Origin: Oscillospiraceae bacterium
GTDB taxonomy: Bacteria; Bacillota; Clostridia; Oscillospirales; CAG-272
Assembly: GCA_015063325.1 (NCBI GenBank)
Contig: SVUK01000017.1
Span: 310,001 to 374,000, forward strand
DNA: 64,000 nucleotides
Reading direction: 5' to 3'
The notes under the pieces are model-generated. The model ran no database searches and had not been told where the DNA came from. It saw nothing but the letters and a program-made list of their open reading frames with translations. A program made the translations under genes and the position numbers. Positions 13,429 to 57,851 of the stretch are shown here, one piece after another. Positions within the stretch are counted from its first letter, which is position 1; each line of letters opens with the position of its first letter.

Positions 13429-14439
13429 TTATTTTCCTCCCTTTCTGTTTGCATTTTCGTCATTCAAAAGCTCAGGAATACCGGGTTTCGGCAAAGGCAT
13501 TTCCAATTGCTCGCCCTCGGATCTTTGAAGATCCGAGTCGTTGAAAGAGCGATTGCTGAGCTGCTCAAGGCGTTCCTGGAAGAGCTTTTTGGATTCTTCG
13601 CGACGGCGGCGCAAATAAAGCTCGCCGGCAAGATAGGTCATCAAAATATCTTCCAGCATTTCGCGATCAACGCCGCGCAAAAGTTTTCCCTCCTGCGCAA
13701 CCGAAACTTTTCCGGTCTGCTCGGATACGACGACAACCAAAGAATCACTCACTTCACTGACGCCCACTGCGGCGCGGTGACGGGTTCCTAAATTGCCGAA
13801 ATCAATCGTATTTTTTGCCGACGGAAGAACGACGCTTGCCGCATAAATCCGGAAATCCCGAATCACGACCGCACCGTCATGAAGCGGCGCCTTATCAAAG
13901 AAAATACTGGTCAACATATGCGAAGTGATTCTGGCGTCGACCAATTTACCCGATTCGATATATTCGCCCAGCTTGGTCAAGCCTTCAAAAACAATCAGCG
14001 CACCGGTCTGATTTTCCGACATTTCAAAAACGGCATTGAGCGTTTGTTCGGTGACCTCTTTTGCAAGCGGATAGAGCTTTTTCGGCAAGGTATCGCTGCG
14101 CGGCGCAAACAGGCGCGAATTTGCAATGCGTTCCAAAGCGTCCCGGATTTCCGGTTGAAACAGAACGATGACGCAAAGGAAAAAGAAACCTGCCGCCAAT
14201 CGGATAATATAGGTCAGTGCCGGCAAATTGAATGCGGACACGATCAGACTCAGCAAAACGACGATAAACAAACCCAAAAGAACGCGTCCGGCGCGTCTTG
14301 CCTTTGCAAAGCGATACAACGCGTAAAGAAGCAGGGTTAAAATCACGATATCGGCAAGATCGAAAGGTCCGAAATAACGGAACGGATCTACGATGTATCG
14401 CAGAATAAACGTTTTCATATTTTCCCAAAATTCTAACAT
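13429..14439 (-). CDS. cdaA: Diadenylate cyclase CdaA
   Basis: CdaA makes the second messenger c-di-AMP from two ATP and controls potassium and osmotic balance. The protein (336 aa) has three N-terminal membrane helices (about residues 23-44, 50-68, 72-92) and a DisA_N catalytic domain with both signature motifs, LHDGAVV near residue 191 and GTRHRAA near 221. A charged C-terminal extension of about 60 residues (RRRREESKKLFQERLEQLSNRSFNDSD) goes beyond the usual end. It leads the minus-strand unit, with a promoter at 14521-14549. glmM, a usual downstream partner, is not next to it. Confidence 0.97.
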   Translation of the reverse strand: MLEFWENMKTFILRYIVDPFRYFGPFDLADIVILTLLLYALYRFAKARRAGRVLLGLFIVVLLSLIVSAFNLPALTYIIRLAAGFFFLCVIVLFQPEIRDALERIANSRLFAPRSDTLPKKLYPLAKEVTEQTLNAVFEMSENQTGALIVFEGLTKLGEYIESGKLVDARITSHMLTSIFFDKAPLHDGAVVIRDFRIYAASVVLPSAKNTIDFGNLGTRHRAAVGVSEVSDSLVVVVSEQTGKVSVAQEGKLLRGVDREMLEDILMTYLAGELYLRRRREESKKLFQERLEQLSNRSFNDSDLQRSEGEQLEMPLPKPGIPELLNDENANRKGGK

Positions 14440-33670: not shown

Positions 33671-34486
33671 TCAATTATATTTTCTACGTAAACGACCGAT
33701 CACCCGACCGCGGCACTGGACATCTGTAAAATCTTTGAGCAGGATGGGACCGTAATCGGGATTGAGCGAGATCAAACGATCTCCGCCGTAAATCTTGAAA
33801 AATCCGTTACCGTCCAAGAGGAAAATTCCGGTCTCCCCAACCTCCACGGATTCGGCGTTCTGCACCAGTAAAACGTCGCCGTTGTGAAATTTCGGCTCCA
33901 TACTGTTGCCGCTGATCCGCAAGGCGTAATCGGCTTCCATCGTCTTCGTATTGTTGGGAACGCTGACGCGTTCGGCTTTACTGCCGTCGAGATAAACGCC
34001 GGTTCCGGCAGATACGGGCAGCTCATAAAGCGTCAACATTCTTTTTCCTGTTTTCGTCTGCGCACCGGCGTATCTTCCGGCAGATTGTTTTGGATAAAGA
34101 ATCTTTGCTTTTTCCTGCGGTTGTTGAACCGATAATTTTTCGCGCTCGGCGTTTTCGGAAACGCGTTTTTCCTCGTGCGCAATAACAGCTTCGGTCAACT
34201 TCTTTCCCCAAATGTCCAAATTTCGATATTGCTCAATCAATTGAATTTCCTCTGCGGAAAGAGTAAAATTGTTTGTGTTTTCCGGATTGCCGGTAATGAT
34301 AAAATCAACGGAACAATCCAGCGCGTTGCAAATGGCAACGATATTGGAAAGCTTCGGCGATTCGTTCATTCCTGCCATCAATTTGCTCAAGGTGCCAAGC
34401 GGAATGCCGGAGCGCTCCGAAAGGCGCTCGTTTGTCATCTTTCGCTCGGTTTTCATCCACTTGATTCGATCGATATAGGTTTCCAT
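33671..34486 (-). CDS. XRE-family repressor with S24 (LexA/CI-like) peptidase domain
   Basis: A 271-aa regulator: N-terminal helix-turn-helix (residues 6-65; LSERSGIPLGTLSKLMAGMNESPKLSNIVAICNALDCSVDFIIT), a charged linker (about 90-140), and an S24 domain with the catalytic Ser in RISGNSMEPKFHNGD (near 200) and Lys in NGFFKIYGGD (near 230). A LexA-like Ala-Gly cleavage site is visible in PVSAGTGVYL. The architecture is that of phage CI-like repressors and HdiR-type stress regulators. No phage genes are nearby. Start at ATG 34486 behind GGAGGG. A perfect inverted repeat covers its own -10 box. Confidence 0.9.
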   Translation of the reverse strand: METYIDRIKWMKTERKMTNERLSERSGIPLGTLSKLMAGMNESPKLSNIVAICNALDCSVDFIITGNPENTNNFTLSAEEIQLIEQYRNLDIWGKKLTEAVIAHEEKRVSENAEREKLSVQQPQEKAKILYPKQSAGRYAGAQTKTGKRMLTLYELPVSAGTGVYLDGSKAERVSVPNNTKTMEADYALRISGNSMEPKFHNGDVLLVQNAESVEVGETGIFLLDGNGFFKIYGGDRLISLNPDYGPILLKDFTDVQCRGRVIGRLRRKYN

Positions 34487-34510
34487 AAACGCCCTCCTTT
34501 TTCCGAATTT

Positions 34511-34545
34511 GATATGATTATACCATATCTTTTTGCGTTTGTAAA
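34511..34545 (-). promoter_or_regulatory. Promoter with an overlapping palindrome upstream of the XRE-S24 gene
   Basis: Minus-strand TTTACA (34545-34540), 17 bp, TATAAT (34522-34517). The inverted repeat GATATG-N7-CATATC (34529-34511) brackets the -10 box and is a likely operator for autorepression. Confidence 0.7.
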
Positions 34546-34584
34546 GTATTTTTTGCAAATTTCTTCTATTTTCGGAAAAATAAT

Positions 34585-35604
34585 TTAAAATTCGGAAAAA
34601 ATTTTGACAAGTGATTTTGCAATTTGTTCGCCGGTTTGCGCCGCCTCTTTGGGAGAATTGCCGCCGCTGCCAATCAACAAAGAAAGCGATAACGGCGCAA
34701 ATTGCTGATTTTGCGGCGTGGATTTTACCCGAATCCCACGAAAGATCCCGGGCGTTTCCTTTTCAGCCACCGCCTGCAACCTTTCGGCAAAACGCAAATT
34801 ATCCTGCCATAAAGGCGAAGGAATTCCGCTCTCCTCGCTTCCGACAATTGCCAAAACCTGAGCCATTGCACTTGAAGAATCGTTTGTCACCGTTTTGATG
34901 TAGCACCCATCATCATCGATTATCGAATCCCTGCTGATCTCGATCACAAGGGAGATTTGCGGATACTCGGAAATTGCTTTTTGAATCAGCGTTTTTGCGC
35001 GTGCCGAGCTGCCCAAATAGCCGTCCCCTTCTTCCGTCTCCCGATAAATGGCGGAAATCCCGTTTTCGTTCAGAACGTTTAGCATTTTTTTAGCAACGGC
35101 ACAAACGGTTTGGGATGAATCGTCTGAAAAAAGAACCTCATTTGCTTTTCCTTGCTCACTGCCGGAAAGATACGCCTCTTTAGGATTGGAGCAATAGATA
35201 AAAACAAGAGGTTCTCCTTCCAATCGAAGCGCATCCTGCTCGGAAAAATCCAAATTCGTTTTGTTTGTTTCAAACAACGTTTTTGCAACGATCGGAATTG
35301 CGTTTTGCCACGTTTCGGAAGGCTGTTCGGATTTAATTTCCGAATCGGATGTCGTCGGTGAGGCTGAGTCTTTCTGTCCATTTTTTTCGTTTGTTACACG
35401 ATCACGGCGAAATACGCCGTCAAAAAAAGTTTGAACAGGTTCCGAAAAAGAGGACCAGATTCCACTGACAGCAAAAGCGGCAACCAAAACCGCGACGCAA
35501 ACAAAAAAGGAAAGCAAAACAAACAGCTTGCGCCCAATGGGTTTGGCAAGCTTAACGCGTTCCGGCGGAATAGGCAGTTGTTCTTGAAAATCCCTATGCT
35601 TCAT
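34585..35604 (-). CDS. SpoIIP-like protein with substituted catalytic residues
   Basis: A membrane-anchored protein (339 aa): basic N-terminus, one helix at about residues 27-48, a low-complexity linker (70-100) and a SpoIIP-type amidase/endopeptidase domain. Its neighbour gpr supports the family call, since gpr-spoIIP is a conserved pair. Where SpoIIP normally has IYHTHTxEx, this protein has IYCSNPKEAY (138-140); where DLHRD is expected it has EISRD (223-226); and the usual LLIExG is SLLIGSG (308-313). Both histidines and one glutamate of the metal/catalytic site are gone, while the fold-defining segments (GSSARAKTLI, MAQVLAIVGS, WQDNLRFAERLQ) remain. Probably catalytically inactive. ATG 35604 follows GGGGAG. 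Confidence 0.75.
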   Translation of the reverse strand: MKHRDFQEQLPIPPERVKLAKPIGRKLFVLLSFFVCVAVLVAAFAVSGIWSSFSEPVQTFFDGVFRRDRVTNEKNGQKDSASPTTSDSEIKSEQPSETWQNAIPIVAKTLFETNKTNLDFSEQDALRLEGEPLVFIYCSNPKEAYLSGSEQGKANEVLFSDDSSQTVCAVAKKMLNVLNENGISAIYRETEEGDGYLGSSARAKTLIQKAISEYPQISLVIEISRDSIIDDDGCYIKTVTNDSSSAMAQVLAIVGSEESGIPSPLWQDNLRFAERLQAVAEKETPGIFRGIRVKSTPQNQQFAPLSLSLLIGSGGNSPKEAAQTGEQIAKSLVKIFSEF

Positions 35605-35676: not shown

Positions 35677-36576
35677 TCATTCAGCCAACCTTCCCAAGAA
35701 AGCAAGTGAAATGGCGCGCGAAAAAATGATTGAAATCTGCTCGGTCACCGTATCACACTCTTTTAACGAAACGAAAAAATCACCTCCGCTCTGCAGCAAA
35801 GACCGCATGCGCTCGTCCGGTTCCCCTGCTCCTGCCTTTGCAAGCGTATGCCAAACCAAGGTAGACGTCGAAACAACGGTTGGAACTCCAAGCGCCAAAA
35901 CCGGAACACCAATCGTTTCCTTCGTCAATCCGCTGCGGTGATTTCCAATTCCGGAACCTGGAATAATTCCGGAATCGGACAACTGAACGGTTGAAGCCAA
36001 TCGTTCCAGATCTCTCGCGGCAAGTGCGTCAATAGCAACGATCAAATCCGGCTTGCATTCACGAACCACCGCGCGAATAATCTCCCCTGCCTCCATTCCG
36101 CTCTGCCCTAAAACGCCGGGTGCAAGCATGGAAACCGAGCAACATTCCAAATCCGAAAAAAGCATAGGATCATGCTCTTTTAAGTGCGCGGTGGCGTTCA
36201 AGCGCCGAAGGGTAAACGGTCCGATCGCATCAGCGGTCAGAGAGGCATTCCCGAGACCGACAAGAAAAACAGAGAAAGAGGAGTCCACGCTTCGGCGACA
36301 AACCCTTTCGGCAAATCCACGTAATTCGCCGGACAGGAGCCGAGCAAGTGTTTCCCGATCCTCATCGCATAAATGATCTGCCCTGCCGCATTCAATGGTC
36401 AGATAATTTCCAATCGGCTTTCCTATCGATTGTGCCGCCTCAGGCGTAAGAACCTGAACGGTATCAATCAAAAAGTCGCCGCATTTTCGCGTCTTTTGAA
36501 GGATTCCTTGGTCAATTTTTCCCGTATCCGGAATACATTCTTTTGCTAAATCACTCTGCCAGTATCGCTCTTTCAT
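35677..36576 (-). CDS. gpr: Germination protease GPR
   Basis: GPR (299 aa) degrades small acid-soluble spore proteins during germination. Family landmarks: the N-terminal propeptide-cleavage context QSDLAKE (residues 7-13), LTIECGRADHLC near 64, VFLVGLGNASLTADAIGP near 104, MLAPGVLGQSGMEAGEII near 150, and LIVAIDALAARDLERLASTVQLSDSGIIPGSG near 178. It is shorter than the Bacillus enzyme (368 aa) but has the main blocks. It lies upstream of the SpoIIP-like gene. In other spore formers it is made in the forespore under sigma-F/G; sigG lies about 20 kb away in this window. Confidence 0.93.
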   Translation of the reverse strand: MKERYWQSDLAKECIPDTGKIDQGILQKTRKCGDFLIDTVQVLTPEAAQSIGKPIGNYLTIECGRADHLCDEDRETLARLLSGELRGFAERVCRRSVDSSFSVFLVGLGNASLTADAIGPFTLRRLNATAHLKEHDPMLFSDLECCSVSMLAPGVLGQSGMEAGEIIRAVVRECKPDLIVAIDALAARDLERLASTVQLSDSGIIPGSGIGNHRSGLTKETIGVPVLALGVPTVVSTSTLVWHTLAKAGAGEPDERMRSLLQSGGDFFVSLKECDTVTEQISIIFSRAISLAFLGRLAE

Positions 36577-57131: not shown

Positions 57132-57851
57132 ATGTTTCAAAGGGTCATACTCCCCTTTTTCCTTGCGGTTTCCTTGCTTGCCGCAATCGCTATGTATTTT
57201 GCCGGTGAAAATAATGCCGAAAAAAAGACAACCGGAACCATCGTTCCGCCAACTATTGTCCTGGATGCCGGACACGGCGGCGAAGATGGCGGCGCAGTCA
57301 GCCAAAGTGGGATTTTGGAAAAGGAAATCAATCTCTCCATTGCCAAACGATTGGAAGCTTTGCTCACGGCAAACGGCTTCCGCGTCGTTATGACGCGTAC
57401 AGAAGATGAACTGCTTTATGATAAAAACACCGACTACCAAGGGCGTAAAAAATCGCTCGATCTTGCCGCGCGCCGAAAGATTGCAGAGGAAACGCCAAAT
57501 TGCATTTTCGTCAGCATTCATATGAATTCCTATCCCGACGCACGTTACAACGGTCTGCAAGTCTGGTATTCGCCCAATAATCCATCTTCAAAAGTCATTG
57601 CCGATACCATACAGGAAACGATTAAAACCAATTTACAACCGGAAAACGACCGCAAAACGAAAGCGGCAACCAGCGCCATTTATTTATTGCATCATCTGAC
57701 CGTTCCTTCCGTTTTGGTAGAATGCGGTTTTCTTTCCAACTCCGAGGAAGCGGAAAAACTGAATACACCGGAATATCAGGAACAGCTTGCGCTTGTTCTG
57801 TCCTTAGCTATCGGAAATGCCTGCAAAAATCCAAGCATTGCAAATCAATAA
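57132..57851 (+). CDS. cwlD: N-acetylmuramoyl-L-alanine amidase CwlD
   Basis: A 239-aa Amidase_3 enzyme: N-terminal membrane helix or signal anchor (residues 4-24) followed by the zinc amidase domain. Zinc ligands and the general base appear as DAGHGGEDGG (near 46), ILEKEINLSIAKRL (near 63), FVSIHMNSY (near 129) and VLVECGFLSNSEEA (near 194). Length and anchor match CwlD, which makes the muramic-lactam precursor of spore cortex that germination lytic enzymes recognise. The sporulation role fits the other genes in the window but is not proven by the local context. Confidence 0.9.
   Translation: MFQRVILPFFLAVSLLAAIAMYFAGENNAEKKTTGTIVPPTIVLDAGHGGEDGGAVSQSGILEKEINLSIAKRLEALLTANGFRVVMTRTEDELLYDKNTDYQGRKKSLDLAARRKIAEETPNCIFVSIHMNSYPDARYNGLQVWYSPNNPSSKVIADTIQETIKTNLQPENDRKTKAATSAIYLLHHLTVPSVLVECGFLSNSEEAEKLNTPEYQEQLALVLSLAIGNACKNPSIANQ

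Follow-up and report, generated by a model that had tools for sequence, protein, structure and literature searches.

SpoIIP, the amidase/endopeptidase of the SpoIID/M/P complex, cleaves peptidoglycan so that one cell can engulf another during spore formation. It is regarded as an essential engulfment enzyme, and according to earlier reports both of its histidines are strictly conserved in Bacilli and Clostridia. The spoIIP gene described here raises the question of whether such a protein can outlive its own chemistry, and if so what it might still be kept for. The gene occupies positions 34585–35604 (minus strand) of the window, by which we mean the whole 64,000-nucleotide stretch that was analysed, and it encodes a 339 amino acid protein, a catalytically degenerate SpoIIP (a pseudo-amidase).

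Identity and catalytic sites of the window SpoIIP

The protein matches the Pfam SpoIIP family (PF07454) with an E-value of 2.9e-31 and 109 bits (cut-off 24.4), and it scores 101 bits against the NCBIfam model TIGR02867, which is under that model's subfamily cut-off of 123 (123.15). A membrane segment is predicted near its N-terminus at residues 28–46 (35467–35523, minus strand; the hydropathy peaks at 2.98 over 19 residues). Its immediate upstream neighbour on this strand is an intact gpr gene, which encodes the germination protease (35677–36576, minus strand; TIGR01441, 248 bits with a cut-off of 120, and Pfam Peptidase_A25); this synteny, already pointed out in an earlier reading made from the sequence only, is also kept in the relatives with dead SpoIIPs discussed below. 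On the other side, 26 bases downstream of spoIIP and on the same strand, is a gene for an XRE-type regulator whose C-terminal part is LexA-like (33671–34558, minus strand), and the diadenylate cyclase CdaA (TIGR00159) is encoded elsewhere in the window at 13429–14439 (minus strand). We take the window protein to be a SpoIIP homologue, likely an orthologue, without the status of a functional SpoIIP enzyme.

Alignment with its relatives shows three altered sites. CSN replaces HTH at residues 138–140 (35185–35193, minus strand; codons TGC TCC AAT), changing H140 to N; the literature motif HTH equates this site with C. difficile H142 (PMC6934232). EISRD replaces DLHRD at residues 222–226 (34927–34941, minus strand; the published motif is DxHRD, PMC6934232), changing H224 to S, and residues 223–226, ISRD, are encoded by ATC AGC AGG GAT with R225 and D226 retained. 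Finally, SLLIG replaces LLEIG at residues 308–312 (34669–34683, minus strand; codons TTG TTG ATT GGC for the last four), changing E310 to L. G312, the invariant glycine of the family, is retained at this last site, and the alignment of dead members shows G312, N316 and E320 (34645–34671, minus strand) as conserved residues that persist past the lost glutamate. In our first alignment the 55 intact relatives show 100% conservation of the H140, H224 and E310 columns. Codons and alignment bear out the two histidine replacements as the sequence-only reading gave them (CSN for HTH and ISRD for LHRD); its third motif, LLIG for LLIE, was right in that the glutamate is gone but placed the site two residues off, as the Glu column is L310 and G312 is the invariant glycine. 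The single histidine of the entire protein is H3, ahead of the membrane segment, so a metal site shifted to some other part of the protein is impossible, and the catalytic-site loss first proposed from the bare letters stands, with the replacements H140N, H224S and E310L. The description of SpoIIP as zinc-dependent that accompanied it is doubtful, as ICP-MS found no bound metal in C. difficile SpoIIP (PMC6221140), although H142 and H222 are essential there.

The assignment of the glutamate deserves comment. In C. difficile, sporulation requires H142, H222 and E309 of SpoIIP, amidase activity requires the two histidines, and the H142R, H222R and E309A proteins do not complement (PMC6221140, PMC6934232); among the orthologues surveyed earlier, both histidines are reported as strictly conserved and the glutamate as highly conserved (PMC6934232). 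H222 and E309 are 87 residues apart in C. difficile, and in the window protein position 224 is 86 residues from 310 and 96 from 320. The LLEIG...N of SpoIIP matches LVECGFLSN of the window's CwlD protein (below), with the E310 column under the VE of CwlD. Glu-to-Asp swaps have been reported at E309 (PMC6934232), and they occur at the E310 column in genera g90 and g82. From this spacing, the CwlD match and the swaps we infer that E310 is the catalytic glutamate. The printed motif GgxxNxxxE (PMC6934232), taken literally, would fit E320, which is retained in the window protein; the loss of both histidines stands whichever glutamate is catalytic.

The AlphaFold2 model of window residues 102–339 has a mean pLDDT of 89.9 (95.0 for the model of an intact relative). 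Foldseek places both models closest to Amidase_3 enzymes, and the best PDB matches of the window model are AmiC2, Ami1, CwlV and CwlD, with global TM-scores by query length that are modest at about 0.4–0.5; searches of the PDB by sequence and by fold turned up no SpoIIP structure. The window SpoIIP is predicted to be an Amidase_3-type amidase in fold still. In sequence and model the protein has lost the catalytic His, His and Glu but still has its membrane anchor, its amidase fold and most of the other residues conserved in the family, from which we infer that the protein is almost certainly enzymatically dead.

The same loss in related species

Among the 35 genomes of the genus, most that have SpoIIP carry intact HTH/DLHRD/LLEIG motifs. 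The altered forms are CAN/GRD/LLIG in G016 and G028, CTY/GRD/LEIG in G018, HTC/RRD/LRIG in G030 and VTR/GRD/LKVG in G031, and G033 shows a partial loss with HTH retained beside QRD/LVIG. A gpr tree built with FastTree, which is independent of the SpoIIP sequence, unites the window genome and five of these relatives (all but G033) in one clade with support 0.97; G033 joins this clade at a weak support of 0.32. Pairwise identity among the SpoIIP domains of the clade's six is 35–59%; therefore the dead form has outlasted several speciations. The catalytic loss most likely goes back to the common ancestor of this clade, which comprises at least six species. A single-protein search of the contig collection found no close relatives, and a search with the alignment of nine intact genus members gave 80 named loci, identified at best as "Clostridia" or "Oscillospiraceae" MAGs, many of them from ruminant hindgut.

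These relatives bear on two alternative explanations. The window genome consists of 24 contigs, and its relatives were assembled from metagenomes, so an assembly or sequencing error or a misalignment might be suspected. Such an artefact is scarcely credible here: the gene is in frame inside a 410-kb contig beside an intact gpr, the domain has no histidine elsewhere, and the same positions are altered in independent genomes, six other MAGs of the genus, which disposes of the sequencing error that the sequence-only reading had allowed for. It is also very unlikely that the protein is still catalytic by way of a re-invented active site, in which Cys138, an Asp, a Glu or some other residue would stand in for the histidines. 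C. difficile SpoIIP shows activity although no metal was detected in it (PMC6221140), which leaves its chemistry unsettled, and four genus-clade members share C138. However, G030, G031 and G033 lack C138, and all three essential positions are altered without any replacement common to the lineages (N/Y/C/R, S/G/R/Q and L/R/K/V, respectively).

Selection on the dead gene

The columns scored here are those conserved in intact relatives. Across the seven dead proteins the catalytic trio survives in only 2 of 21 cells, as against 197 of 252 cells in the other columns. R225, D226, A248, Q249, G255, W266, N269, R289, N299, G312, N316, E320 and A321 are present in all seven dead genus-clade proteins. 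No frameshifts or stops were seen in the dead clade genes, and in a neutral simulation at 10% divergence the frame stayed open in 1.8% of cases. Differences at codon positions 1, 2 and 3 are about 0.36, 0.24 and 0.60 within the clade, where dN is 0.34–0.49 and dS about 1.5–3; the resulting dN/dS of about 0.13–0.28 is a rough guide only, as dS is saturated. By these sequence statistics the dead SpoIIP is retained under purifying selection across several species. The protein is accordingly a pseudoenzyme in the usual sense, with catalytic residues lost, a fold that is predicted to be kept and purifying selection over several species. In the clade the ratio of SpoIIP dN to gpr dN is 1.5–2.2, compared with about 0.8–1.2 in most intact pairs; the intact pairs G011/G021 and G020/G034 reach 1.7–1.9, so that constraint on the clade SpoIIP is likely relaxed and the contrast with intact pairs is not clean.

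Engulfment partners and other sporulation genes

The earlier suggestion that another paralogue might carry out hydrolysis at engulfment fares poorly. The genome search found one SpoIIP copy in the window genome (1.68 Mb, 95.6% complete) and no second one with intact HTH/LHRD. A parallel search for its partners was also negative, as SpoIIM was found in 0 of the 35 genus genomes and canonical SpoIID in none of them, the window genome included; thus, as far as detected, the SpoIID and SpoIIM partners of a SpoIID/M/P complex are not encoded. A 479 amino acid protein of this genome (L105:944-2383, contig C18) has a weak SpoIID domain (31 bits in the genome search) and three PG_binding_1 domains. 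We rejected it as the SpoIID, since its counterparts across the order occur beside canonical SpoIID; it is a candidate for an unrecognised wall enzyme. Compensation by an extra amidase was likewise rejected, as Amidase_3 counts within the genus are alike (1–2 in genomes with dead SpoIIP, mostly 1–3 in those with intact SpoIIP).

The window also encodes a CwlD-like Amidase_3 protein, the cortex amidase, which serves as an internal control (57132–57851, plus strand; TIGR02883, 209 bits, just under the cut-off of 221.6), and all of its motifs are intact (DAGHGG, the E in LEKEINL, VSIHMNS and LVECGFLSN). A single M23 protein was found in the genome (L310:1423-2280, contig C11). It is SpoIIQ-like, with a membrane segment and intact HxxxD/HxH motifs; among NCBIfam models it matches SpoIIQ best (E 3e-19, under the model's cut-off), and its PDB matches include SpoIIQ. 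It is the obvious candidate for whatever wall cutting is left at engulfment. SpoIIIAH is present in 34 of the 35 genus genomes. Most of these genomes, the window's included, have SpoIVA; it was not found in G028, a member with dead SpoIIP. SASP is present in the window genome, which that search covered.

These genes bear on the quite improbable explanation that sporulation has been lost and that the whole programme is a relic of which SpoIIP is one decaying piece. Sporulation loss is common among gut Clostridia, the window genome is a small gut MAG, and its DMP genes are missing; on the other hand the genome encodes full-length, well-conserved SpoIVA, SpoIIIAH, SASP, GPR and CwlD, and SpoIVA is widespread in the family (below). 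DMP components are absent in about 24 confirmed spore formers (PMC7924749), and Lachnospiraceae lack SpoIIM (PMC3416734).

Variation across the family

The family sample comprises 254 genomes that are at least 85% complete, of which 148 have SpoIIP, 88 a strong SpoIID-domain match and 219 SpoIVA. At least 68 of them have SpoIVA without detectable SpoIIP or SpoIID, although badly diverged copies could escape detection. Genera g67 (G144-G152), g85 (G241-G245), g23 (G270-G302) and others keep SpoIVA with no SpoIIP and no strong SpoIID match, and the engulfment hydrolases have apparently been lost altogether in such genera. Among the SpoIIP-bearing members, nearly all of whose motifs were read, at least one catalytic residue is replaced in 36 family genomes (Glu-to-Asp was not scored as loss, and G162, whose gene is at a contig end, was excluded). 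H224 is absent in 28 of the 33 dead members outside genus g60. A second whole genus, g76 (L199-L202, L212-L216), also has its catalytic histidines replaced (HFS/HSS..., SRD/SRG), with R225 present in 9 of 9.

The dead family members form nine groups in the gpr tree when G162 is set aside; the deep nodes of this tree are weak, and for that reason we reduce these to a safe count of at least four independent catalytic losses. The losses in g1 and in g69 (G167) stand out most clearly, since each of these genera also has intact members. Canonical SpoIID, judged roughly by open-frame length and match length, is found in none of the 36 catalytic-loss genomes as against 23 intact ones that have it (Fisher p 0.0025, relatedness ignored).

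This variation could reflect a slow decay, an unlikely but serious alternative in which SpoIIP became dispensable once SpoIID and SpoIIM were lost, its active site was the first part to drift and the gene is now being lost, held for a while by its gpr-operon position or by some weak residual use. The loss comes in graded stages in the family (only the glutamate in g7; H224 and E310, but not H140, in G033 and G167; all three in the window genome), SpoIIP evolution outpaces that of gpr, and the 68 SpoIVA-bearing genomes without detectable SpoIIP belong to related genera. Decay sits less well with a frame that has stayed open and a codon-position bias that is strong between species with domains of just 35–59% identity, with the lack of any observed frameshift or stop, and with the pattern of spared residues: G312 is present in 33, N316 in 28 and E320 in 29 of the 33 dead members, and R225, Q249, G312 and A321 are spared near-perfectly in them. 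Thus the sequence-only reading's other suggestion, that the protein is evolving toward loss, finds support in the faster rate and the related genera without detectable SpoIIP, and is opposed by the frame and the codon bias.

A possible role for a dead SpoIIP

We favour the explanation, at a probability a little under 0.6, that once the SpoIID/M/P machine had been taken apart the pseudo-amidase was retained for engulfment or wall binding in a role without catalysis. Thinning of the septum and migration of the membrane would no longer depend on the SpoIID/M/P peptidoglycan-cutting motor, and engulfment would be driven by the SpoIIQ-SpoIIIAH zipper together with wall synthesis, with the SpoIIQ-like LytM endopeptidase perhaps supplying what little cutting is needed. 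The dead SpoIIP might then sit at the leading edge and, by binding the wall or a partner, position or anchor other proteins. Wall-stripped B. subtilis still engulfs through the SpoIIQ-SpoIIIAH zipper (PMC4214620), and a scaffold role would fit the retained fold and the purifying selection. Several observations weaken this explanation: the faster evolution of SpoIIP than of gpr in the clade is also compatible with slow decay, the at least 68 SpoIVA-bearing genomes without detectable SpoIIP or SpoIID suggest that the protein is dispensable in relatives, C. difficile catalytic mutants form no spores, and the organisms of the clade are uncultured, with SpoIVA not found in one of them (G028). A broader idea, which we put forward tentatively and at somewhat less than even odds, is that this family of gut Clostridia makes endospores by an engulfment that does without the SpoIID/M/P motor, zipper and wall synthesis driving the process with the wall present, and that SpoIIP has repeatedly become a non-catalytic factor of engulfment and has been dropped in other genera.

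A catalytically dead SpoIIP appears to be new as a variant, because a full-text literature search for SpoIIP with "pseudoenzyme", most subscription papers being outside its scope, returned nothing and both histidines are called strictly conserved (PMC6934232). A lineage that has the protein and lacks the chemistry sets what SpoIIP does as a structure apart from what it does as a catalyst, and such lineages are natural cases for testing whether engulfment needs SpoIID/M/P wall hydrolysis. The retention of the dead gene in related species suggests that spore engulfment there proceeds without SpoIIP activity. It is also a warning for the prediction of sporulation from MAGs, as a spoIIP profile match is not the same as a working engulfment enzyme.

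Comparison with known systems

The window protein shares with SpoIIP of C. difficile and B. subtilis its family, its N-terminal membrane segment, the amidase fold (predicted here), the gpr-spoIIP pair, and the retained RD past the lost histidine, AQ, GxxxN and E320 positions; it differs from them in that the catalytic His, His and Glu are all replaced and that the SpoIID and SpoIIM partners were not found in its genome. A parallel is Bacillus SpoIIQ, a LytM protein with a degenerate metal site that acts as a zipper rather than an enzyme (PMC6934232), in which a hydrolase fold was kept for structural work in this same process after the site was lost. The parallel is between different families, however, and here it is the SpoIIP amidase that is dead and the SpoIIQ-like LytM protein whose site is intact. 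Finally, the predicted fold is that of the Amidase_3 enzymes (CwlV, CwlD, AmiC, LytH), and unlike the CwlD of the same window, which has every catalytic motif, the window SpoIIP has none.
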